Shown piece after piece: positions 7,817 through 39,258 of a stretch of DNA of 55,859 nt. The DNA lies in NCBI RefSeq assembly GCF_016841685.1, contig NZ_JAENYR010000019.1, positions 1 to 55,859 on the forward strand, read 5' to 3'. Origin of the DNA: Thiohalomonas denitrificans (GTDB lineage: Bacteria > Pseudomonadota > Gammaproteobacteria > Thiohalomonadales > Thiohalomonadaceae). Numbering within the stretch: the first letter of the stretch is position 1; every line of letters begins with the position of its first letter. The translations under genes were made by a program, and so were the position numbers. The notes below the pieces were generated by a model. The model was not told the origin of the DNA, did no database searches, and saw nothing but the letters and a program-made list of their open reading frames with translations.

Positions 7817-8113
7817 ATGACCGACAAACTTCCAAACATCCATCCCGGCGAGATCCTGCTGGAAGAGTTCCTGGTTCCGCTCGGGATCAGCTAGAACCGA
7901 CTCGCCCGGGATATCAACGTTCCCCCGCGCCGTATCAACGAGATCGTGCTCGGCAAGCGGGCCGTCACGGCGGATACGGCCGTACGCCGGGCTCGCTATT
8001 TTGGCACCACCGAGCAATTTTGGATGGGCCTTCAGGACGACTACGAACTCGAAGAGGCACACGCCGCGCTCGGCAACCGGTTGGATACAGAGGTGAAGCG
8101 GTTGCAAGCCTGA
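7817..8113 (+). pseudogene. higA: HigA-family antitoxin interrupted by an amber codon
   Basis: ATG 7817 opens MTDKLPNIHPGEILLEEFL, the signature beginning of HigA/VapI XRE antitoxins. Codon 26 is TAG (7892-7894), where GIS-Gln-NRLARDI is expected (CAG to TAG). The frame then continues intact through INEIVLGKRAVTADTA and RYFGTTEQFWMGLQDDYELE to TGA 8111-8113, 98 codons in all. No HigB toxin precedes it. The single nonsense change suggests recent loss, or read-through if a suppressor exists. Confidence 0.8.
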
Positions 8114-16784: not shown

Positions 16785-19700
16785 TCACTGTACCATGCTC
16801 CAAATCACATTCATCGGCCCGCTCCCCTGGTGGCCCTGATATCGCACCTGCCCGATATAGCGGAAGGGAGCTGCCTTACCGCCGATCAGCTTTTGTTCAC
16901 GAACGAACAGGTGGACCTCGATGCCGCGCTGTTCGTGCTCGATGATCTCCCGTCCCCATGCGCTTTCCGGCGTGGTGCGGTTCTGGCTTTGCCAGTGGAA
17001 GGTGTGTTCGTCAATGAAATAGTCGTGGTAGCGGTGCTCAGCGCTCTTGCCTTGTTTGTTGAGGGTCACCAGTAGGATGTGTCGACGTGGGTGGTTCAGG
17101 ACGACGTGGCCGGCGTGCCAGTTGCCCGGGTTGAAGCTCTCGCCGAAGAGTTCCGGGATCTCTTCGCGCATGAAGGTTTGGCCAGTGGCCAGTTCCAACG
17201 GGTCGAGCACGGCTCTTAACCGTGCCAGGGTGCGCATGGTTTCGTCCGCTGTGTAGTCCGGATAGTCGGGGTTGGTCGCCTTGAGGATGTGGTGGCCATC
17301 GGGCGTCTTGGTGACCTTGCGCAGCAGATACTGATCGTCGCCGGTGGTGTCCTGGCGTTCGATAACGACGATGCTGCCGGTGATGGCGCCGGCGTTGCCG
17401 GTGTCCATGCGTTCGAGTAGCAGGTAGTCACCGTCGTGGATAGGGTGTTTGCCGCCGTTCATGGAGTCGCCGATGGCGCGGGCGATGAAGTGGCGTGCGG
17501 GATCGAGGCGGCCGTGGCCCGGGCCGAGGGTACGGTACTCTTCGGTGTCGGCGCGCCCGACGCGAAAGTAGCCGCAGGCGATTCGGACGTTGGGGAAGTA
17601 GGGCAGCTCTGTCCCCTCGGTTGGCTGGGGGAACGGCACCACATCGGCGGAAGGGGGCGCGGACGTTTCATCAGTGGCCGGGCGGTGAGCCTGGTAGTCC
17701 GCCAGGCGATAGTCCACCAGTTCTTGGAGCATCGATTCGAACGGTTCGATCTCGCTTGGTTCAACGGGGAAACGAGGGCGAAAGCGCCCATCGACAGTCT
17801 CGAACCATTTTTTGCCTTCGTGCGCAAGATGGTGGATTGGGTTGCGACTCCAGTAACGGTGCCAGGCGCCACTATCGATCTGCTCAATATCCTGAAGCTC
17901 GGGAATAATGTCACCGATCAGGCTGCGCCGACGACGGAAAACGTCAAGTGCCTGGCTAGAGAGCCCCTCGAGTTTTGGCGGATCGAGAAACCCACCGTTC
18001 TCAAGCAAGGACTCCAGCAGCACCATTTTGAAGCTCTTGTTCATCCGCTCGACTTCCATGTCGCGGAAGAAGTCGGCATGCCGTGCAAAACACACCTCCT
18101 CTTCAGCGCTCAAGTCCCCCTGGTCCTGCACTAATGCCCACCAGTGGCCATACTGCTTGCGCAGTTGCGGCATGCTGACGCCGGCCCGATAGAGCTCCGC
18201 CAATGTCGGGCGGCGCCCCAGGGTATCTTTGAGAGCCTGGTAGTCCTGCTGAATCCCCTTGCTGTCCAGCCGCTTGAGGAAGTTGATGATTGCCAGGTCA
18301 TAGTTGACGTAGCAGCCTTCGGGCAGCTGGAGCTTACCTTGCTCCGCTTTGCGGGCGAAGGCGGCGAGACTACGATAGGTACCGCTGACGTTGAACAGCG
18401 CTTGGGGCTTGTTGAGGAAGCCCCGGTGGTTGCCGATGAAGTCGAGCACCACCAAACGCTCCTTCCCTTCATGCCGGCGTAGCCCGCGCCCGAGCTGCTG
18501 GAGGAAGAGGATCTTGGATTCGGTGGGGCGGAGCATCATCACGGTGTCGATGGCCGGCAGGTCGACGCCCTCGTTGAACAGGTCCACCGAAAAGATCACT
18601 TCGAGCTGACCTTCGCGCAGGGCATCCAGGGCCTCGCCCCGTCCCAGCTTGGAGCCGGCGTAGGCCGCGGCAGCCTTGATGCCCTCTTTCCGGAAGTGGT
18701 CGGCCATAAAATCCGCGTGCCGCTGCGATACGCAAAAGGCGAGGGTTCGCCGCTGCCGTTTCTCCTGCCACTCCCGCCAGGCGTGGCGCGCCCGGGCGAG
18801 CGTCGCCAGTTTGTTGCTCAGGGCGTCCGGATCGAAGCGGCCGTTGCGCCATGGGATTGCGTCGTACTCCACCGATTCGTCGTGGATGCCGTAATAGGTG
18901 AAGGGGCAGAGCAGTTTTTCGTTCACCCCCTGAAACAGGTCGCAGGTATAGACCAGGTTGTCGTCGCAGAGGGAGAGGATGTCGGACTGGTCGGTGCGTT
19001 CCGGAGTGGCGGTGAGCCCCAGGAGGAACCGAGGTTGAAAGTGGTTCAGTAGGCGGCGATAGGTGTTGGCCGCCGCGTGGTGAAATTCGTCTACCACGAT
19101 GTAGTCGAACTGGCCTGGAGCAAACCTTTCGAGGTGATGGGCCTGGCCCAAGGTTTGGACCGAGGCGAATAGTAGATCGACCTGATCATCCTTACGGGTT
19201 CCGGTGTAGCGACCCACACGCGCCCGGGGCCGGATACGCTGGAAGGTATTCTCCGCCTGAAGCAGGATCTCTTCGCGGTGGGCGACAAACAGCACACGAC
19301 CTGCGTTCATCTGCTGGCTGTCGAATGCAGCGAGATAGGTCTTGCCCAGCCCCGTCGCCATCACCACCAAGCCACGGGCGTAGCGCTGTCGGCGTGTCTC
19401 CGCCAGTGCGGCGAGCGCCTCCTGCTGTACCGAGGTCGGTTCGGGCGGCGGCAGTTCGGGATCATCGCTGCCCGGTGCGACCGGCAGTGGGTGTGATTGG
19501 CGGCGCTGCTCGTAGGCCTCGATCCAGGCGTGGTCCAGAGGGCGCGCGTTCGGGTTGTTGAACAGGCGCACGAATGCGTTGCGGATCTCGTCGAAACGTT
19601 CCGGCTCCGGATGATCGGCATTGGGCAGGCCGATCCGGTAGTTCCATTCCAAGCCATCCTGCAGAGCGGTCGCGCTGATGTTGCTGGAGCCCACGAAGGC

Positions 19701-20048
19701 GGTGCCGTAGACGGTCTCCTCGCCATCGGTTCGCACGCAGATGTAGGCTTTCAAATGGAAGCTGCCCGATCCTGCCTCATGCACCCGAACCTCGGCACCC
19801 TCGTCGCCAAGCAGCATGAGCATACGCAGTGCTTGGGGATCGGTCACGTCGAGGTAATCACTGGTCAGCACCCGCAGTCGCGCTTTGCGGACGGTGACCG
19901 CCTCGCTCAATGCATCGTAGAGCAGCTCGAGACCGCTGGCCTTGATGAAGGCGACAGCGAAGTCGATCTCATTGGCCTGGCGAATGGCCTCGAGCAGGCG
20001 CGGTAGAAAGGGGTCGTTGGGTCCGCCGGTGGTCAGATAGGGAGGCAT
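16785..20048 (-). CDS. PLD nuclease - SF2 helicase - LexA-like - DUF3427 protein
   Basis: A 1087-residue protein. The N-terminal phospholipase-D-like nuclease domain has FHLKAY (HxK near 98) and VGSSN. The superfamily 2 helicase has Walker A MATGLGKTYLAAF near 233, the DEFH box IVVDEFHHAAANTY, GLTATPERTD, and motif VI QQLGRGLRR. A helical region follows, then an S24/LexA-like fold with IGDSMNG (Ser near 860) and LLRKVTK (Lys near 909). DUF3427 sequence forms the C-terminus. It likely acts on DNA; a defence or repair role is inferred. The chosen ATG is preceded by GGAGG at good spacing, and the start overlaps the upstream methyltransferase by 16 nt. A longer frame to 20126 exists but lacks support. 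Confidence 0.85.
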   Translation of the reverse strand: MPPYLTTGGPNDPFLPRLLEAIRQANEIDFAVAFIKASGLELLYDALSEAVTVRKARLRVLTSDYLDVTDPQALRMLMLLGDEGAEVRVHEAGSGSFHLKAYICVRTDGEETVYGTAFVGSSNISATALQDGLEWNYRIGLPNADHPEPERFDEIRNAFVRLFNNPNARPLDHAWIEAYEQRRQSHPLPVAPGSDDPELPPPEPTSVQQEALAALAETRRQRYARGLVVMATGLGKTYLAAFDSQQMNAGRVLFVAHREEILLQAENTFQRIRPRARVGRYTGTRKDDQVDLLFASVQTLGQAHHLERFAPGQFDYIVVDEFHHAAANTYRRLLNHFQPRFLLGLTATPERTDQSDILSLCDDNLVYTCDLFQGVNEKLLCPFTYYGIHDESVEYDAIPWRNGRFDPDALSNKLATLARARHAWREWQEKRQRRTLAFCVSQRHADFMADHFRKEGIKAAAAYAGSKLGRGEALDALREGQLEVIFSVDLFNEGVDLPAIDTVMMLRPTESKILFLQQLGRGLRRHEGKERLVVLDFIGNHRGFLNKPQALFNVSGTYRSLAAFARKAEQGKLQLPEGCYVNYDLAIINFLKRLDSKGIQQDYQALKDTLGRRPTLAELYRAGVSMPQLRKQYGHWWALVQDQGDLSAEEEVCFARHADFFRDMEVERMNKSFKMVLLESLLENGGFLDPPKLEGLSSQALDVFRRRRSLIGDIIPELQDIEQIDSGAWHRYWSRNPIHHLAHEGKKWFETVDGRFRPRFPVEPSEIEPFESMLQELVDYRLADYQAHRPATDETSAPPSADVVPFPQPTEGTELPYFPNVRIACGYFRVGRADTEEYRTLGPGHGRLDPARHFIARAIGDSMNGGKHPIHDGDYLLLERMDTGNAGAITGSIVVIERQDTTGDDQYLLRKVTKTPDGHHILKATNPDYPDYTADETMRTLARLRAVLDPLELATGQTFMREEIPELFGESFNPGNWHAGHVVLNHPRRHILLVTLNKQGKSAEHRYHDYFIDEHTFHWQSQNRTTPESAWGREIIEHEQRGIEVHLFVREQKLIGGKAAPFRYIGQVRYQGHQGSGPMNVIWSMVQ

Positions 20049-20644
20049 GGTGCCTCCGGCTTTCGGAGCAGTGCGTTGAGCCAACGCTCGTCCCGGCGGT
20101 CGGGACGCTGGTCGCCGGTTTGCCACATTTCAATTAGTGTCAGGCCACCGGTCTCGGGCAGGAGTTGGCGCAGACCGGCTTCGTCCAGATCGGTGAAGCG
20201 GCGTCCACCCGCCTCACGCTCTCCCGTGCCGTATTTGAACGAGCAGTATAGAACCCCGCCCGGCTTGAGCGCATTGGCCAGGCGCTGGAACACGTTCGGC
20301 AGCTCACGCCGGGGAACGTGCAGCAGGCTGGCACAGGCCCAGATGCCATCGAACTTATCGTGCCAGGAGAGCTCCTCGAAGCGCAGCACCTGCACCGACT
20401 GACCCAGGTGCTCTGTCGCCAGCGCGGCGAGCGTCGGCGCAGAATCGAAGGCAGTGACACGGTAGCCGAGCTCCAGAACGGCACGGGCATCGCGCCCGGA
20501 GCCACAGCCGGCATCCAGAATGTGTCCGTTCGCAGGAAGGTGCTTCAGAAACGGACCATGAAGAGGCGCCATCTCGACAGCGACCGTGTCACGGAAGAAG
20601 CTGGTGGCGTGCTGCTCGTAGTAGTCGCTGTCGTCCTGGGGCAT
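20033..20644 (-). CDS. class I SAM-dependent methyltransferase
   Basis: A 203-residue Rossmann methyltransferase. Motif I is HILDAGCGSGRDARAVLELG (about 36-55), followed by the acidic residue in VTAFDSAP. DGIWACASLLHVPRREL is the motif IV region. Similar small enzymes include TehB-like and type-11 methyltransferases; the substrate is unknown. Its 3' end overlaps the start of the PLD-helicase gene by 16 nt, so the two are co-translated. That makes a modification-plus-nuclease unit conceivable, although a DNA target is not indicated by any DPPY-type motif. Confidence 0.85.
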   Translation of the reverse strand: MPQDDSDYYEQHATSFFRDTVAVEMAPLHGPFLKHLPANGHILDAGCGSGRDARAVLELGYRVTAFDSAPTLAALATEHLGQSVQVLRFEELSWHDKFDGIWACASLLHVPRRELPNVFQRLANALKPGGVLYCSFKYGTGEREAGGRRFTDLDEAGLRQLLPETGGLTLIEMWQTGDQRPDRRDERWLNALLRKPEAPCLPI

Positions 20645-20824: not shown

Positions 20825-21079
20825 TCACCGACTCTTTTCTCGACAGACTGATGGTTTCCTTGCCTCTACAGCAGCAACAAGCTTGGCAGGAGATGTGTCG
20901 AGGGCTTCGGCAAGCGCGAAAAGACTCCTCAGTGATGGTTGCCTCAATCCCCGCTCAAGGAAGGAAATGAAGGTTCGGTCCACGCCCGCTTCGAGGGCAA
21001 GCCTCTCCTGGGACAACTTGCACTCAATGCGCCTCGCCCGCAAGACCTGACCGAAAGCCGTTTCCAGTGTTTCTCCCAT
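20825..21079 (-). CDS. XRE-family HTH regulator, copy 1
   Basis: An 84-residue XRE repressor-like protein whose helix-turn-helix spans about 12-66 (VLRARRIECKLSQERLALEA then FISFLERGLRQPSL). The frame extends to 21343, but ATG 21079 begins the conserved domain. It is divergent from a 58-residue coiled-coil gene at 21211. The same divergent arrangement is repeated at 21508-22054. It probably controls the intergenic promoters. Confidence 0.8.
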   Translation of the reverse strand: MGETLETAFGQVLRARRIECKLSQERLALEAGVDRTFISFLERGLRQPSLRSLFALAEALDTSPAKLVAAVEARKPSVCREKSR

Positions 21080-21210
21080 GGACGCAAGCTTCCCTTCTTG
21101 CGAGACTGATGGTCTACGGACTATAGTATGCAGTCCCTCGATCGCAACTGTTTGCTGGCCCAATGGGCGACCGGATGGTGGACGATGAAATGCGGGGTAA
21201 GGAGTATCGA

Positions 21211-21387
21211 ATGAAAAGGAAGAACAGTGCCAAGATCGCACGCCTGAAGGCCAAGATCGTGGACTTGGAAGTGCTAGTTGAAAAGTGGGCGCACGCGAAC
21301 GATCCGGAATCGAAGTGGATGCTCTATCTGCTGCGGGAAGCACTTGAAATGGGGCGGCTCAAATTGCGAGCCATGGAACGTAATTAA
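21211..21387 (+). CDS. small coiled-coil protein, copy 1
   Basis: A 58-residue, strongly helical protein. A basic heptad stretch (KIARLKAKIVDLEVLVEKW) leads to HANDPESKWMLYLLREALEM and a basic end. I do not recognise the family. A close paralogue sits at 21842-22054, with 20 identical residues in a row from ANDPESKW onward. The chosen ATG has AAGGAG 6 nt upstream, and the paralogue keeps the same spacing, which validates this start. Divergent pairing with an XRE gene suggests a small toxin, antitoxin or co-regulator; this is inference. Confidence 0.65.
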   Translation: MKRKNSAKIARLKAKIVDLEVLVEKWAHANDPESKWMLYLLREALEMGRLKLRAMERN

Positions 21388-21426
21388 GTGGGGAAGGCTG
21401 CGACCTTCGATAGCTACATCGGCATA

Positions 21427-21492
21427 TCCTCGCTTCGATATCATACCCTATTAATTCGACATTTCTGACGAAGGCGGGATTGAGCAGCAGGA
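21427..21492 (-). pseudogene. 66-bp remnant of a paralogue of the XRE gene at 27279
   Basis: CGCTTCGATATCAT...TTTCTGACGAAGGCGGGATT...AGCAGCAGGAT aligns closely with 27644-27708, inside the 275-residue XRE protein gene. On the minus strand it codes for the LLLNPAFVRNIE stretch. Nothing else of that gene remains here. Confidence 0.6.
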
Positions 21493-21507
21493 TGGTGGTT
21501 GTCTCGG

Positions 21508-21753
21508 TTACTGTCCCTTTATCCTTTGCAGCTCACTTGTCGGTGGGAATAAATCCCCGACTTCCACATCAAGCACTGCGGCGATTTTGATGAGGTTCAG
21601 CGCCGCAACATTCCTCTCACCCCGCTCAACTCCCCCGTAATAGGCGCGATCGAGCCCGACTTCGGCCGCGAAGCCTTCTTGCGATAGGCCCTTCGATTCC
21701 CTTACTGCCCGAATCCTGGCTCCGAGGGCCACCAGATGAGGGTGCTTGCTCAT
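21508..21753 (-). CDS. XRE-family HTH regulator, copy 2
   Basis: An 81-residue protein with a complete XRE helix-turn-helix (ARIRAVRESKGLSQEGFAAE then YYGGVERGERNVAALNLIKI) and a C-terminus ending in VGDLFPPTSELQRIKGQ. It is divergent from the second small coiled-coil gene, with 88 bp between the starts. Sequence identity to copy 1 is only moderate, whereas the coiled-coil partners are very similar, so the regulators have diverged faster or were exchanged. Confidence 0.82.
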   Translation of the reverse strand: MSKHPHLVALGARIRAVRESKGLSQEGFAAEVGLDRAYYGGVERGERNVAALNLIKIAAVLDVEVGDLFPPTSELQRIKGQ

Positions 21754-21841
21754 GAGCCCACGCTAAGGGTAGTATGCTTTTCCGGCCACGGCCTATGAGT
21801 ATCAATTGCTTTTTCTGAATGCATTAGTCAAGGAGCTTGGA

Positions 21842-22054
21842 GTGAAGAGGGAAAGGGGAACCGAGATCGCGCGTCTGAAGGCAAGGATTGCCGACTTGGA
21901 AGGATTGATCCAAAAATGGGCGTACGCCAACGATCCGGAATCGAAGTGGATGCTGTACCTTTTGCGGGAAGCGCTGGAAATGGGGCGGCTGAAGTTAAGA
22001 CGTGTCGAGCGGGAGAACGGAGATGAAACGCGGAAACTGGGACGGAGGGGTTGA
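21842..22054 (+). CDS. small coiled-coil protein, copy 2
   Basis: A 70-residue paralogue of the 21211 gene. It shares EIARLKARIADLEGLIQKW, then ANDPESKWMLYLLREALEMG, and has an extra basic tail (ENGDETRKLGRRG). The start is GTG 21842 with GGAG 6 nt upstream, matching copy 1. A longer in-frame start at 21806 lacks the conserved spacing. The gene stops 2 bp before the convergent HepT remnant. Function unknown. Confidence 0.65.
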   Translation: MKRERGTEIARLKARIADLEGLIQKWAYANDPESKWMLYLLREALEMGRLKLRRVERENGDETRKLGRRG

Positions 22055-22056
22055 AT

Positions 22057-22167
22057 TTAGAGCAGCGGTTGAATCAGGAGACCGGCGCTGTAGGCGAGCA
22101 CCTTCTCGGAGAAGGCGATCATATCGTTGATGTAAAAAGCCCATTCGCGCTTCGGTGTTTCAGACAT
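22057..22167 (-). pseudogene. N-terminal remnant of a HepT/HEPN toxin
   Basis: Starting at ATG 22167, inside the end of the nucleotidyltransferase gene, the frame reads MSETPKREWAFYINDMIAFS and EKVLAYSAG, and stops after 36 codons. This matches the beginning of HEPN/DUF86 toxins. The catalytic RxxxxH half is missing, replaced by the adjoining coiled-coil gene. The antitoxin-like nucleotidyltransferase survives. Confidence 0.6.
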
Positions 22168-22450
22168 TAACCCGTTCCTGTTCGATATACGGGCGTAATT
22201 CCGGACGTAGCGCCTTTTCAGTGACCAGGTCTACGGGGCAACCGAGCAGGTCTTCCAAATAAAACTGCACCCCGAAATAGCGGCCGGACGTGGCGGGCCT
22301 GTCGAAGTCCACCAGGATGTCCACATCACTTTCTCTGCCCGCTGTATCGCGCGCCGTTGAGCCAAAAAGGGCCAGCCGGATAACGCCGAAACGGGCCTGC
22401 AACTCCGGCTTGCCGAGAGCGAGCAGTTGAAGGGCGCGCTGTCGTTTCAT
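22160..22450 (-). CDS. MntA-like nucleotidyltransferase, orphaned
   Basis: A 96-residue minimal nucleotidyltransferase with LFGSTARD (29-36) and SDVDILVDFD (41-50), and a C-terminus (LLGCPVDLVTEKALRPELRP) typical of the MNT partners of HEPN toxins. It overlaps the start of a truncated HepT by 8 nt. With the toxin catalytic half gone, it is an orphan antitoxin. It is only distantly similar to the intact MntA at 9986. Confidence 0.85.
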   Translation of the reverse strand: MKRQRALQLLALGKPELQARFGVIRLALFGSTARDTAGRESDVDILVDFDRPATSGRYFGVQFYLEDLLGCPVDLVTEKALRPELRPYIEQERVNV

Positions 22451-27278: not shown

Positions 27279-28106
27279 CTATTCCACGACGCTCAACCGG
27301 TGGTAGCGCTCGGCCGGGATTTCGATGGCGACCACATGTTCCAGATTTACGAACCGCGAGCGATAGTGACCCTCTTGTGCCAGCTCCACGAACGCGCTGC
27401 GTGGTACATGGGCGTGTCCGAACTCGAGGGCGAACAGGTCCGGAACGACCTCTTCATTGAGGTAGCTCCACTCGTCTTTTCCGTTGTCGTAGGTCACCCG
27501 CAAGTCGGTGGCCAGTTGTAGGGCGCGTTCTTCGCCGAGTTCCGCAATCAGCCTTTCGCAGGCTTTTCGGACTTGGCCGGTGATCGCTTCGTGGCCCCAG
27601 CCATCCAGTGCCCGATAGACTTCGGGGTGTTCAAACCCGGGCATCGCTTCGACATCATCCCCTATCAACTCGATGTTTCTGACGAAAGCGGGATTAAGCA
27701 GCAGGATTTTGTTGTTCAGCGTCCAGGCGTAGAGCCAGCCATCCGGGGTGCCTTCCGCGTGCAGGGGCTTGCGCGGTTCGAGTTGTTCCAGGAGCGATTC
27801 CCGTGCCCGTTCGTCGATGGGGAATTGGCGGTGGCCAACGGTGGTTTCTATGGTAAGGGTTCCGTAAGGGGTACCGGTATCGGTGACGGCGAACGGCGTC
27901 TCCGGCCACTCCTCGGGCTCGATCTCCCAGCCGAGCAGTTCTTCCACCGTGCAATGCAGCACCATGCACAGGTCCTTCGCCTGGCGAACGCTCAACAGGG
28001 CGTCGCCGCTCTCCCAGCGGGCGATGTTTACCGGCTCTGTGCCGAGGCGCGCCGCCAACTCTTCCCGGGTCATCCCCTGCTGGGTGCGAAGATCCCTGAG
28101 TCGCAT
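27279..28106 (-). CDS. XRE-family regulator with unknown C-terminal domain
   Basis: A 275-residue protein. An XRE helix-turn-helix lies at about 1-60 (RDLRTQQGMTREELAARLGT then NIARWESGDALLSVRQA). A 200-residue C-terminal domain follows that I do not recognise, with WLYAWTLNNKILLLNPAFVR and YNGKDEWSYLNEEVVPDLFA-like segments; it could be a ligand-binding or enzyme domain. A 66-bp piece of a paralogue remains at 21427-21492, indicating recombination between the two loci. No obvious partner gene. Confidence 0.75.
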   Translation of the reverse strand: MRLRDLRTQQGMTREELAARLGTEPVNIARWESGDALLSVRQAKDLCMVLHCTVEELLGWEIEPEEWPETPFAVTDTGTPYGTLTIETTVGHRQFPIDERARESLLEQLEPRKPLHAEGTPDGWLYAWTLNNKILLLNPAFVRNIELIGDDVEAMPGFEHPEVYRALDGWGHEAITGQVRKACERLIAELGEERALQLATDLRVTYDNGKDEWSYLNEEVVPDLFALEFGHAHVPRSAFVELAQEGHYRSRFVNLEHVVAIEIPAERYHRLSVVE

Positions 28107-33891: not shown

Positions 33892-36075
33892 ATGTTTGTT
33901 CGTCGAGTACTTCAGCACGTTCATGCGCTGCTAGCCGTGGCGCTCATTCTTTCTCTAGCTGCCTGCGGAAGTGATGGCAGCGATGGCGCCGATGGTCAGC
34001 CGGGACCGGGCACCGTAACAACGGCGAAGGCGCTGGACGTTCAGGTCTCCAGCGTTGAAATCGAGAGTCCACCAGTCGTCGAGTTCTACATCGAAGACGA
34101 GTACGGCATGCCGTTCACCGGCCTGACCGCCGGAGATGTGCGCTTCACCATTGCCCAGTTGAAACCGGGCGCCAATGGCGAGCCGAGTGCCTGGCAAAAC
34201 TATATCAACAAGACCGAAGAGGCGGGCAGCGTCGGATCCGGCACCGAAGACAAGGTGCAGGCCAACTATGAGAGCGCCACCAATGGCACCTTCGTCAATA
34301 ATGGCGATGGCTCCTACACCTACACCTTTGCCACCGATATCACCAACGTGACCTCGCCCGTGGCGGTCCCCTACGAACCCTCCCGGACCCATCGCCTGGC
34401 GATGCAGCTCGAGAAGGGGGTGCCGGTCACCAATGTGATCTACACCTGGCAGCCCTCCACGGGGACCACCAGCGGCATCACCAGCCGCGAGATCGTGAAG
34501 ACCGACTCCTGCAATGAGTGCCACGGCAAACTCGCTTTCCACGGCGGCGGTCGCATCGACACCCGCTACTGCGTGACCTGCCACAATCCGGGCAGCGCCG
34601 ACGCCAACAGCGGCAACACCATCGACGCCAAGGTCCTGTTCCACAAGCTGCACATGGGGGCCAATCTGCCCAGCGTCGTGGCAGGTGGCACCTACAGCAT
34701 CTTTGGTCATCGCGACAGCGAGCACGACTATTCCGATTTGCACTTTCCGCAGGACGTGCGCAACTGCACGAAGTGCCATGACGGCGCCGACAGCGATACC
34801 CCGGACGCGGACAACTGGAAGAATCGTCCCAGCGCCGAGGCCTGCGGCTCCTGCCATGACGACGTCGAGTTCGATACCGGGCTCAACCATACGGGCGGTG
34901 TCGCCGACAACAGCATGTGCAGTGGCTGCCACGCCAGTAGCGGCTCGGCCGGTCCGGTGGCCGATTCGCACGTTATCCCGACGCATGTGGCGAGAGAGCG
35001 GTTCGCCTATAACATTACCGGGGCGAGCTACGATGCGGGCACCGGGACGGTCAGTGCCAACTTCACCATTACCGATCCGGCCAACGGCGATGCGCCCTAC
35101 GACCTCACCGAGGCGGACTGGGCGACCAGCACCCTGCGACTCAATATCGCCTGGGACAGTCGTGACTACACCAATACCGATAGCGCCAACGGCGTCTCCA
35201 AGGCGGTGCAGATTGCCTTCCTGAGCAGTGGTGCCCTGGACCCGGCCTATCACTCCTACGATGCCGGCACCGGGGTGCACACGGTAACGTCCGATCCCCT
35301 GCCGCTCGCGGCACAGGCCGCGGGCAGCGGTTCGGTGGCCATCGAGGGCTATCCGAAGTCCGATGTGGACGGTGTGATCGTTAACACCCCGATCACGAGC
35401 GCCGTGGAGTATTTCGCCATCAGCGATGGTTCCGCCCGGGCGCGGCGTCAGGTGGTCGACAATGCCAAGTGCCTGCAGTGCCATGAGACTCTGTCGCTGC
35501 ACGGCAACAACCGCGTGAACGACACCGCCATCTGCGTTACCTGCCACAACCCCAACAACACCGACATCTCCGTGCGACCGGCCGGTGCGGTCAGCGGTAT
35601 CGATGGCAAGCTGGAAGAGTCCATCGACTTCAAGCGGCTGGTCCATGCCATCCATGCCACCGGCTTCCGCGAGAATCCCGTTGTCTTCTACGGGCATCGG
35701 GGTAGCGTGCATGACTACAGCGGGCTTCGCTTCCCGGGGATTCTGGGCAACTGTCAGACCTGCCATGACGGTGACAGCTATGCGCTGCCACTCGCCGGCG
35801 AGGTATTGCCGAGCGTTATCGACACCACGGATGCGGGGACGGCCTCGGATTCGGATTTTGTCGACACCGATCCGGCTAACGACCTGATGATCACGCCGAC
35901 CGCGGCGGTCTGCTCCTCCTGCCATGACAAGGCCGTTGCCCAGGCACACATGGAATACAACGGCGCACAGTTCAATGTCGACCGTGTAACGGCAGCGGGA
36001 AGAATCGAGGTGTGTGAAACCTGCCATGGCCCGGGTCGTACGGCGGATGTTGCCGTCATGCACGGCATCGAATAG
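33892..36075 (+). CDS. mtrC: outer-surface decaheme c-type cytochrome (MtrC/OmcA family)
   Basis: A 727-residue lipoprotein: signal peptide with lipobox LAAC (Cys25). It has ten CxxCH heme sites in two groups of five: CNECH, CVTCH, CTKCH, CGSCH, CSGCH (about 207-345), then CLQCH, CVTCH, CQTCH, CSSCH, CETCH (about 527-710). The stretches before each group (25-205 and 350-525) are beta-rich. This is the four-domain plan of MtrC/OmcA, the terminal reductase on the cell surface that hands electrons to minerals or other extracellular acceptors. AGGAGG precedes the ATG. It leads the mtrC-mtrA-mtrB operon. Confidence 0.94.
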   Translation: MFVRRVLQHVHALLAVALILSLAACGSDGSDGADGQPGPGTVTTAKALDVQVSSVEIESPPVVEFYIEDEYGMPFTGLTAGDVRFTIAQLKPGANGEPSAWQNYINKTEEAGSVGSGTEDKVQANYESATNGTFVNNGDGSYTYTFATDITNVTSPVAVPYEPSRTHRLAMQLEKGVPVTNVIYTWQPSTGTTSGITSREIVKTDSCNECHGKLAFHGGGRIDTRYCVTCHNPGSADANSGNTIDAKVLFHKLHMGANLPSVVAGGTYSIFGHRDSEHDYSDLHFPQDVRNCTKCHDGADSDTPDADNWKNRPSAEACGSCHDDVEFDTGLNHTGGVADNSMCSGCHASSGSAGPVADSHVIPTHVARERFAYNITGASYDAGTGTVSANFTITDPANGDAPYDLTEADWATSTLRLNIAWDSRDYTNTDSANGVSKAVQIAFLSSGALDPAYHSYDAGTGVHTVTSDPLPLAAQAAGSGSVAIEGYPKSDVDGVIVNTPITSAVEYFAISDGSARARRQVVDNAKCLQCHETLSLHGNNRVNDTAICVTCHNPNNTDISVRPAGAVSGIDGKLEESIDFKRLVHAIHATGFRENPVVFYGHRGSVHDYSGLRFPGILGNCQTCHDGDSYALPLAGEVLPSVIDTTDAGTASDSDFVDTDPANDLMITPTAAVCSSCHDKAVAQAHMEYNGAQFNVDRVTAAGRIEVCETCHGPGRTADVAVMHGIE

Positions 36076-36081
36076 AGGCCA

Positions 36082-36107
36082 GCGCGGGCGCCTTCGGGCG
36101 CCTGCGC
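36082..36107 (+). promoter_or_regulatory. strong TTCG-loop hairpin between mtrC and mtrA
   Basis: GCGCGGGCGCC, loop TTCG and GGCGCCTGCGC form an 11-bp stem with one G-T pair, 6 bp after the mtrC stop. No T-run follows. It could stabilise the mtrC transcript or attenuate read-through into mtrA and mtrB. Confidence 0.55.
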
Positions 36108-36177
36108 CGGGGATCGAAACCACAGCTAAGCCGGCAGGGAGGCCGGCCCCTTTAAAGTGGACCCTGTGAGGTGCCTT

Positions 36178-37131
36178 ATGCGACAACGACGGGCTTATGC
36201 CATTGCGGCCCTTCTGTTCCTGATTTCTATCGGCTTCACCGTATCGGCGCAGGAAAGCGAAGAGACTTCGCCGACCTACACCGACCGCGGCGCTGACCGC
36301 TGCCTGAAGTGCCATGACGAATTTTCCGAGTTTCCCGTCATGGATATCTTCAAGACCAAACATGCCGAGAGCTCGGACCCACGCACGCCTTTCGCGAAAC
36401 TGCAGTGCGAGACGTGCCACGGACCGGGATCCGAACACGCCGACATGGCCATCGATGATGACGAGGAAGAGCGGCCGCCGATCCGCGACTTCGGCCATCG
36501 CGGGGCGGAAACACCGGTGGCCGAGCAGAATGCGGTCTGTCTGAGTTGTCACGATGACCGTCACCGAAACGACTGGCGTGGCAGTGCCCACCAGACCGGA
36601 CAGGTGGCCTGTGCCGACTGTCATCGGATCCATACCACCCATGACCCGGTGCTCACGCCCTCGGAAGAGCCGCAGGTCTGTTTCCAATGCCATACGCGGG
36701 AGCGTTCGGAGAGTTACCGTGCCTCGTCGCATCCGTTGCGCTATGGCCTGATGAGTTGCGGATCCTGTCATGAACCCCATGGTTCCTTGACCGAATCGAT
36801 GCTGCGGCGCTCGACACTCAATCAGACCTGCTACGAGTGTCATGCGGAGAAGCGCGGGCCCTTCCTCTGGGAGCACGCTCCCGTTAGCGAAGACTGCACC
36901 CACTGCCATCAACCCCATGGCTCGAACCATCCGGCGCTACTGACGCAGCGTGCGCCTCTGCTGTGCCAGCGCTGCCATTCACAGGCGGGTCATCCCAGCA
37001 TCGCCTTCACCGGCGACCTGTTGTCCGGCGCATCGCCCACTGCGGGGCTGCTGCTCGGACAGAGCTGCATGAATTGCCATTCCCAGGTGCACGGCTCCAA
37101 CCACCCCTCCGGGGTCAACCTGAAGAGGTGA
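36178..37131 (+). CDS. mtrA: periplasmic decaheme c-type cytochrome (MtrA/DmsE family)
   Basis: A 317-residue exported protein: signal peptide MRQRRAYAIAALLFLISIGF then TVSAQ. Ten CxxCH motifs occur in order: CLKCH, CETCH, CLSCH, CADCH, CFQCH, CGSCH, CYECH, CTHCH, CQRCH, CMNCH. Number and spacing match MtrA, which threads through the MtrB barrel and wires the periplasm to MtrC. The start at ATG 36178 has GAGG upstream and gives a clean signal peptide; a GTG start at 36157 is possible. It is 3 bp from mtrB. Confidence 0.94.
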   Translation: MRQRRAYAIAALLFLISIGFTVSAQESEETSPTYTDRGADRCLKCHDEFSEFPVMDIFKTKHAESSDPRTPFAKLQCETCHGPGSEHADMAIDDDEEERPPIRDFGHRGAETPVAEQNAVCLSCHDDRHRNDWRGSAHQTGQVACADCHRIHTTHDPVLTPSEEPQVCFQCHTRERSESYRASSHPLRYGLMSCGSCHEPHGSLTESMLRRSTLNQTCYECHAEKRGPFLWEHAPVSEDCTHCHQPHGSNHPALLTQRAPLLCQRCHSQAGHPSIAFTGDLLSGASPTAGLLLGQSCMNCHSQVHGSNHPSGVNLKR

Positions 37132-37134
37132 TGT

Positions 37135-39258
37135 ATGACCAGACTGAATCGACGTTTTTTGGCAGGACAGCCGGTGGTCGGCTTGATCCTGATCGGAGTT
37201 TCAACCAGCGGTGCGGCCGCTGAACTGTGGACCCAGGCTGGAGAGGTGGACAAGTCGGAGTGGGAGTGCAAGTACTGTCTGTTCGAGAGTGGACTCAGCG
37301 GTGATGTGCAGTTGGGGGTCGGCTCCGTGGACGAAGATCAGTTCGGCTTCGGCAATTACACCGGCTATGACGACGACGGCGCCTACCTCGTTCTCGGAGC
37401 GGACTTGCGTTACCGGGGAGAGGAGGCCGCCTACTGGCGACTGAACAGCTCGCGTCTGGCACTGGATAGCCGGAGTGTCCGGCTCGAAGGTGGTCGTCAG
37501 GGTAGTTACCGGGTCGGCGTCGACTACCTGGAGATACCCCGGCTCTACTCCGACAGGGCAGAGACCCCGTTCACCGGAGTCGGCGGCAACGACTTGCAGC
37601 TTCCGGATAACTGGGTCAAGGCGGGCACTACCGACGGCATGACCGAGCTGGACAACAGCCTGCGTCCGGTCGCGTTGCGGACCGACCGTCGCCGGGTCGG
37701 TGTCGGCGTGGAGATTACCCCGACCTCACGCTGGAGCTATTCAGCCGACTTCCGGCGCGAGAGGAAGGAGGGGCTCAACGTGATCGGCGGTTCGGTGCTG
37801 TTCCGCAGCGCCCTGCTGCCGGAACCGGTGGACTACACCACCGAACAGCTTGATCTGGGGGTAGGTTATCAAGGGGATCACTGGAATGTTCAGGTCGGCT
37901 ATTACGGCTCATTTTTCCGGGACGATAACCGGTCACTGCGCTGGGACAACCCCTTCGGCGACCCGACCGGCGCCAACGAAGGGCAATTGGCGCTGCCGCC
38001 GGACAATGAGTTCCATCAGGTGACCCTGTCCGGCCGATACGATGTCAGTGAAGCGACCCGGGCCAGTGCCAGGGTGTCGCTGGGGCGTATGACCCAGAAT
38101 GATGAATTCCTGCCGTATACGGTCAACCCCTCCCTCACCACGGGCGGGTTGCCCCGGGATTCGCTCGAGGGTGAAATCCGCACCGCCAATCTCGATGCGA
38201 GGCTGGTGTCTGCCTGGAATGAACGTCTTACTCTGCAGGCGGATTTTCGCCACGACGAGCGTGACGATGAGACGCCCACCGACAGCTTCGATTATGTCAG
38301 TACCGATGCCATTCTGCCGGGTGCCCGCGAAAACCGGCAGTACGACCGCCGGGACAGCCGGTTAGCGATGCAGGGACGCTATCAACTGACGCCGAAAACG
38401 CGGGTGTCGACAGGCGCGGACTACGATCGAAAGAGACGGCCCGATGAGGAGGTCGAAGAGACACAGGAGACCACCGTCTGGGCCGAAGCCGCCTCCCGGC
38501 TCCACCCCACCAGCCAGCTGGTCGTCGGCCTCGCTTATGCGGATCGGGATGCGTCGGAATACCGGGTAGTGGATGCCGCGATCCCGGAGCAAAACCCGCT
38601 GATGGTGAAGTTCAACATGGCATCGCGGGAGCAGGAACGGGCGGAGGCGCGCCTGACCGTTTCACCGCGAGAACACATCGACTTCGGAGTCGAATTCGCC
38701 TATCGGGACAACGACTATACGGACGGGGCCATCGGGCTGCGCTCGAGCCGTGACACCAGCGTCAGCTTCGATGCCACGGTGCTGGTCAGTAGAAGCCTGA
38801 GTTTCCATGGCTTCGCCAGCCGGGAAGTCCACGACAACGAGCAGACCGGCAGTCAGAACTTTTCGGTTCCCGACTGGTTCGCAACCACCGAGGACGACAT
38901 CAACAGTGCCGGCGTCGGGGTGTCGTGGGAGGTCTTCCACGACAGCTTCACCCAGAAAGGGCTGAACCTGAGCCTCGATTACGTTCGCTCCGACGCTACC
39001 GGAAAGATCGGCATTAGGAACGAGACCGATTTTCCGGACCTGGAAAGCTCGGTGACCAGTATCCAGGCGCAGGCTCGCTATCGGGTCAGCGAAACGGTCT
39101 CGACCGAGCTTGCCTACTACTACGAGCGGTTCGAGAGCGATGACTGGATGGTGGACGGGGTCGAGCCCGATACGCTGCCGACCGTGCTCACTCTCGGCAG
39201 TGAGGGCCTGGACTACGACAATCACGTGATTGCCGCCTACGTCCGCTACCGGTTTTAG
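37135..39258 (+). CDS. mtrB: MtrB/PioB-type outer-membrane beta-barrel
   Basis: A 707-residue protein with a signal peptide (residues 1-29). The N-terminal CKYC pair (Cys45, Cys48) is a mark of MtrB from several metal reducers. Alternating amphipathic strands run to a C-terminal aromatic residue (AYVRYRF), as expected for an outer-membrane barrel. It sheathes MtrA and holds MtrC at the surface. It follows mtrA by 3 bp, and a hairpin lies 16 bp after its stop. Confidence 0.93.
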   Translation: MTRLNRRFLAGQPVVGLILIGVSTSGAAAELWTQAGEVDKSEWECKYCLFESGLSGDVQLGVGSVDEDQFGFGNYTGYDDDGAYLVLGADLRYRGEEAAYWRLNSSRLALDSRSVRLEGGRQGSYRVGVDYLEIPRLYSDRAETPFTGVGGNDLQLPDNWVKAGTTDGMTELDNSLRPVALRTDRRRVGVGVEITPTSRWSYSADFRRERKEGLNVIGGSVLFRSALLPEPVDYTTEQLDLGVGYQGDHWNVQVGYYGSFFRDDNRSLRWDNPFGDPTGANEGQLALPPDNEFHQVTLSGRYDVSEATRASARVSLGRMTQNDEFLPYTVNPSLTTGGLPRDSLEGEIRTANLDARLVSAWNERLTLQADFRHDERDDETPTDSFDYVSTDAILPGARENRQYDRRDSRLAMQGRYQLTPKTRVSTGADYDRKRRPDEEVEETQETTVWAEAASRLHPTSQLVVGLAYADRDASEYRVVDAAIPEQNPLMVKFNMASREQERAEARLTVSPREHIDFGVEFAYRDNDYTDGAIGLRSSRDTSVSFDATVLVSRSLSFHGFASREVHDNEQTGSQNFSVPDWFATTEDDINSAGVGVSWEVFHDSFTQKGLNLSLDYVRSDATGKIGIRNETDFPDLESSVTSIQAQARYRVSETVSTELAYYYERFESDDWMVDGVEPDTLPTVLTLGSEGLDYDNHVIAAYVRYRF

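Follow-up and report, generated by a model that had tools for sequence, protein, structure and literature searches.

A conserved predicted hairpin protein paired with unrelated XRE-type regulators in Thiohalomonas denitrificans

The genome of Thiohalomonas denitrificans (G000) contains six intact copies, on three contigs, of a small gene coding for a predicted helical-hairpin protein. All six are divergent from a gene for an XRE regulator (Pfam HTH_3). Among modules with this layout, those that have been studied best combine related regulators with unrelated small proteins. Here the situation is reversed: across six pairs in one genome, the small protein has been kept and the regulators have been swapped, as if one output had been wired to several unrelated switches. 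The pairs are very probably XRE-controlled divergent switches.

Two modules in one window

Two of the copies lie inside the window, the whole stretch of 55,859 nucleotides that was analysed. The original prediction placed a minus-strand XRE gene and a plus-strand small gene twice between 20825 and 22054, and both the arrangement and its coordinates are correct. The features are as follows.

20825..21079, minus strand: XRE/C-protein-like regulator of module 1, 84 aa, start MGETLETAF; Pfam HTH_3 2e-15
21080..21210, no strand: putative divergent promoter/operator region of module 1, 131 bp
21104..21136, no strand: candidate C-box-like operator of module 1; GACTGATGGTC, then GACTATAGTA inside GGACTATAGTATGCAGTCC; includes TAGTATGC
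21211..21387, plus strand: small predicted helical-hairpin protein, copy 1, 58 aa, ATG start; dN/dS ~0.05 against copy 2
21508..21753, minus strand: XRE/C-protein-like regulator of module 2, 81 aa; HTH_3 2.1e-14
21754..21841, no strand: putative divergent promoter/operator region of module 2, 88 bp; TAGTATGC at 21770, GGCCACGGCCTATGAG at 21784-21799
21842..22054, plus strand: small predicted helical-hairpin protein, copy 2, 70 aa, GTG start; 76% identical to copy 1

Both small genes carry AAGGAG six bases before the start codon, which is the common spacing of the ribosome-binding site that had been described. Homology between the two modules begins abruptly at this site. The description of the modules as duplicated pairs therefore holds for the small gene from its ribosome-binding site onward, but not for the DNA upstream, where identity is at background level. 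Tandem duplication of the whole module was considered and ruled out, because the XREs and the upstream DNA are unrelated between the window copies.

The two small proteins share a run of identical residues, as had been noticed, although it is 25 residues long (ANDPESKWMLYLLREALEMGRLKLR) and not 20. The XRE partners do differ much more, with 32% identity against 76% for the small proteins. Comparison of synonymous with non-synonymous change between the two small genes, which had been proposed as a check, gives dN 0.10 against dS ~2.0 (dN/dS ~0.05). With synonymous sites near saturation, such a ratio means that the small genes are constrained and were not recently duplicated. By this measure the hairpin protein is under strong purifying selection, and the small genes are real ones.

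Copies in the genome and relatives elsewhere

Each of the six small genes is a single-gene unit, with a convergent gene next downstream. HTH_3 matches number 18 in the whole genome. For any one gene, our own arithmetic then gives a chance of ~18 x 150 / 3.79 million (7 in 10,000) of a divergent XRE gene at 150 bp or less, so that divergent pairing within 150 bp in six cases out of six is far beyond chance.

The same linkage is found outside this species. In G018, which belongs to another genus of the same family, a homologue of the small protein is encoded in the same divergent layout, and its XRE is 69% identical to that of module 2. A weak relative of the small protein in G009 (E = 0.007) lies opposite an XRE-like gene that scores below the Pfam cut-off. 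The G009 module is therefore a probable but not a certain member of the family; its later high profile score arises by construction, since the G009 sequence was already in the alignment. Over all eight intact copies the distance between XRE and small gene is 59-145 bp. Two further weak relatives, in G192 (E ~1e-5), have no XRE neighbour. The E-values of the weakest relatives are marginal.

The hairpin family is narrow. Single-protein and profile scans of GTDB contigs with the small protein gave no relative outside its own genome, and searches of viral contigs, plasmids and phages gave no homologue. The genomes searched comprised one per species, with the class and the phylum sampled (~400 each). 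Three phage matches at E=0.8 were dismissed as chance, and weak profile matches in the ~400 class and ~400 phylum genomes, which fell mostly within long unrelated ORFs, were rejected.

Decay of the module can be seen in a congener, G001. What remains there is the module 2 XRE gene with a frameshift and 37 bp of the small gene, and no intact module was found. Since the small gene has been lost and the XRE degraded, the module is dispensable in that genome. A truncated fragment of the small gene was also found at L010:14089-14186. The modules are dispensable and lie in DNA that changes fast and has many toxin-antitoxin and defence genes; the neighbours tested around them match families of these kinds.

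Discordant evolution of the two partners

Pairwise identity across the six copies is 53-76% for the small proteins and 21-37% for the XREs, save for one pair of XREs at 95%. This pair belongs to modules 3 and 5; identity between them is ~90-100% over the operators and the HTH half of the XRE, and the small gene is more diverged. Between genera the pattern is reversed: module 2 and the G018 module have XREs that are 69% identical and small proteins that are 36% identical. The homology boundaries in modules 1 and 2 and in modules 3 and 5 indicate that the two halves act as separable units joined between the operator and the ribosome-binding site. As an alternative to such an exchange of partners, concerted evolution of the small genes could produce discordant distances of this kind.

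A conserved hairpin with swapped regulators makes a sharp prediction, namely that there is one common target. Because the output is conserved while the regulators differ, this target would be something other than the cognate XRE, a conclusion that is rather probable.

A different possibility is that the hairpin antagonises its own divergent XRE in a closed feedback loop. An example for such logic is found in Bacillus, where the HTH repressor SinR is paired with SinI, a helical antagonist of ~57 aa that binds a dimerisation domain of SinR. The present modules likewise join an HTH regulator with a small helical protein, and the two genes are adjacent. A similar loop has been proposed for the multi-copy XRE/small-protein pairs of Streptomyces (PMC6262351). 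However, a single hairpin would here have to act on XREs that are 21-37% identical and belong to different classes, and the distances of the two partners do not track each other. Moreover, most of the XREs consist of the HTH only, without an extra interaction domain such as the dimerisation domain bound by SinI. The small protein gave no match to the SinI family in Pfam or NCBIfam. A hairpin directed at its own XRE is thus unlikely.

The Streptomyces pairs (WhiJ/SCO4542, Scr1/Scr2), in which an XRE is combined with a DUF397 protein, were long predicted to be toxin-antitoxin systems (PMC6262351). They resemble the present modules in that a genome may hold many paralogous pairs of an XRE and a protein of ~60 aa (PMC6262351). 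They differ in layout, as DUF397 genes follow the XRE gene and the hairpin gene is divergent from it; a search of Pfam with the small protein gave no DUF397 match.

The small protein

The intact copies of the hairpin protein are 53-70 residues long. AlphaFold2, given an alignment of eight sequences, models the protein as a two-helix hairpin with a pLDDT of 93 and a pTM of 0.73. No significant match was found in Pfam, NCBIfam, PHROGs, PADLOC, PDB or viral structures. A Foldseek search with the model returned nothing at E<=0.001, which is expected for a two-helix hairpin.

The residues invariant among the six copies include hydrophobic ones and polar ones such as E33, S34, K35, E43 and E46. In the model, the invariant hydrophobic residues fit the core of the hairpin. 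The invariant polar residues suggest that the protein carries a conserved binding surface. Net charge is not conserved and ranges from +5.6 to -4.5 over the six copies, which argues against simple binding of nucleic acids.

The same evidence bears on the idea of a Rop-like hairpin that binds nucleic acids or serves as a scaffold, with no antagonist role. The modelled fold does resemble Rop (TM ~0.84), as it does many other hairpins, and two of the copies are strongly basic. Nevertheless, no Foldseek match reached E<=0.001, and what has been conserved over the six copies is a set of hydrophobic and mixed polar residues rather than charge. A Rop-like role is very improbable.

Regulators and their candidate operators

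The XREs are 76-84 aa long, with the HTH covering nearly all of the protein; a C-terminal extension is seen in those of module 6 (108 aa) and of G009. Of the five XRE types, three are similar to the controller (C) proteins of restriction-modification systems. For the module 1 XRE the nearest solved structure is C.AhdI (3.3e-9) and the PADLOC Control_protein model matches at 6.8e-12; the module 2 XRE matches C.AhdI at 1.3e-17 and Control_protein at 2e-21. The module 6 XRE is a homologue of C.Csp231I (8e-27). C-protein or Control_protein models match the XREs of modules 1, 2 and 6 and of G018, that of module 3 weakly, and that of module 4 not at all.

Several modules have operator-like arrays between the two genes that are specific to their XRE and have no exact match elsewhere in the genome. 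An orphan protein family thus comes with ready-made candidate operators. Looking for repeated dyads brought them out. Their occurrence in the genome was assessed by exact matching, which misses degenerate sites, so that the regulon may be wider. Scoring simple inverted repeats in one intergenic region at a time gave nothing significant and was uninformative.

In module 1, two promoter-like sites stand face to face (21098-21127 on the plus strand and 21147-21120 on the minus strand) and have a common -10 box, TATAGT. This box sits within GACTATAGTA, which is similar in sequence to the C-box GAC-TATA-GTC, the published optimal site (PMC3758141). A perfect GACTATAGTC occurs on a Pseudomonas plasmid (L054), upstream of an XRE 52% identical to that of module 1.

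The motif TAGTATGC, to which the original prediction had drawn attention, does occur in the window exactly twice, at 21124 and 21770, but alone it carries little weight. Some 8-mer is common to two such intergenic stretches in ~21% of shuffles, and at least two occurrences of TAGTATGC were seen in 5 of 100 shuffled windows. The first copy overlaps the C-box-like site; the recurrence in module 2 is suggestive only. In module 2, the first ~45 bp of the intergenic region are kept in the G018 module up to CTATGAG, and from there, at the small gene, the two diverge.

Three TGTTCANATNTGNAC sites are present in each of modules 3 and 5, and in both modules one of them abuts the XRE start codon; none occurs elsewhere in the genome, and the control count is 0. 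Module 4 alone has two perfect GCTCCG-N4-CGGAGC dyads, one of them spanning the XRE start codon. The reversed control of this dyad is also found twice in the genome, so that it is the clustering that counts. Module 6 has two CTWAGN5CTWAG sites 22 bp apart; the pattern used, ACTTAGGNATNCTNAG, matches twice there and at no other place in the genome (control 0). C.Csp231I itself recognises a pair of CTAAGN5CTTAG sites spaced by 18 bp (PMC4321490), and CTAAGN5CTTAG is present upstream of the plasmid relatives of the module 6 XRE. Judged by sequence, modules 6 and 1 thus each combine an HTH of the C-protein type with a matching candidate operator upstream.

The likeness to restriction-modification controllers therefore includes the protein classes, C.AhdI (1.3e-17 and 3.3e-9) and C.Csp231I (8e-27), and the types of candidate operator, GAC-TATA-GT and CTWAGN5CTWAG pairs. 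It does not extend to the genes controlled. Neither the lists of ORFs nor the family searches at the loci showed a restriction-modification pair beside a module, and the hairpin gene occupies the position that is often the methyltransferase's. A type IV-like helicase is encoded at a distance of 0.7 kb from module 1, beyond a methyltransferase-like gene. Among six inspected plasmid relatives closest to the XREs of modules 1, 2 and 6 (48-59% identical), none has an annotated hairpin neighbour. These observations suggest that proteins of the restriction-modification controller type have been recruited as general switches without restriction-modification genes.

A model for the modules

In the proposed mechanism, each pair would be a self-contained two-gene switch. 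A short XRE, of the C-protein type in several copies, would bind the operator array between the divergent genes. Sites at the XRE start codon and sites toward the small gene would allow the XRE to control its own expression as well as the small gene's, by repression or activation. The output would be the conserved hairpin of 53-70 residues, which may bind a target protein common to all copies. It would most likely act as an antagonist, similar to an antirepressor, of another regulator or complex and not of its own XRE. For the role of protein-binding antagonist the case is about evenly balanced. As an overall reading, an XRE/C-protein switch with a hairpin output acting on a shared cellular or prophage protein is the best available and is held with middling confidence.

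The closest parallel is provided by the TF-smORF modules of phages, in which a C-protein-like transcription factor controls a counter-oriented antirepressor smORF (Silpe et al. 2023, PMC10432266). Both kinds of module have a short HTH regulator resembling restriction-modification controllers (C.AhdI, C.BclI), a counter-oriented small ORF of similar size (here 53-70 aa in eight intact copies), regulator-operator specificity and a small protein without a recognisable domain. There, however, the two characterised transcription factors are homologous and the smORFs unrelated; in the present modules it is the small protein that is conserved, and the regulators that are unrelated. Each smORF there targets its own cI (PMC10432266), whereas a common target is expected here. 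Finally, the TF-smORF modules reside on plasmid-like phages and the present ones in toxin-antitoxin and defence neighbourhoods; no structural phage genes were recognised near the modules in the ORFs read, the contigs being fragments. The best reading by analogy is that the hairpin modules may work like phage TF-smORF antirepressors; membership in the phage class is not claimed.

Regulated modules of either a phage-switch or a toxin-antitoxin type had been suggested. The former is supported by divergence from an XRE in all six copies, by the two other genomes, one of them with a weak homologue, and by the operator-like arrays of several modules. For the latter, the hairpin would be a growth inhibitor against which the XRE protects by repression, forming an addiction or stress module amid toxin-antitoxin genes. 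A plain listing of neighbours agrees with such a setting: HicAB (module 4), AbiEi/AbiEii (module 5), Xre/RES (module 6), an MNT/HepT remnant (module 2) and a NERD-UvrD helicase (module 3). Circuits of C-proteins also usually govern a harmful enzyme. However, the genes are divergent in all copies and do not form one operon, most of the XREs are HTH-only and have little room for a toxin-binding domain, and the small protein matches no toxin family in Pfam, NCBIfam or PADLOC. In addition, the similar XRE-DUF397 pair was non-toxic in tests (PMC6262351). A growth-inhibiting hairpin is therefore fairly unlikely, and a classical type II toxin-antitoxin operon is disfavoured, as it fails on gene layout.

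One elaboration of the switch with a shared target is a tripwire array. Different elements, whether invading or resident, that disturb any one of several unrelated regulators of phage or plasmid type, each with private operators, would release the same effector. This is a long shot.

Surrounding DNA

Next to module 2, a truncated hepT remnant (22078-22195) lies beside an intact nucleotidyltransferase antitoxin-like gene (22160-22450). In the congener G001 the hepT ORF has its full 120 aa (L009:2648-3010). Between modules 1 and 2, a 64-bp fragment (21430-21493) is 87% identical to 27644-27707, which falls within another XRE gene (27279-28106). The protein encoded at 16785-20126, of PLD/helicase/S24/DUF3427 composition, matches PADLOC models for type IV methyl-directed restriction at 2.6e-118.

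The toxin-antitoxin-rich part of the window has two pairs of direct repeats of ~170 bp with 90-92% identity (7943-8113/9482-9652 and 6557-6725/10822-10989), one of them close to a match to HTH_3 (7862-8020) that contains an in-frame stop. In G018, a second ORF for a C-type XRE (L008:1119-1550) comes after the small gene in the same orientation, and the two may form an operon. Regular repeats with a spacing of ~72 bp, resembling CRISPR arrays by eye and self-BLAST, lie next to the G009 module (L018:42-250 and 452-870). Farther along the window, at 33892-39258, inspection by eye shows two multihaem cytochrome-like ORFs and, after them, a probable outer-membrane barrel; this layout recalls extracellular electron transfer.
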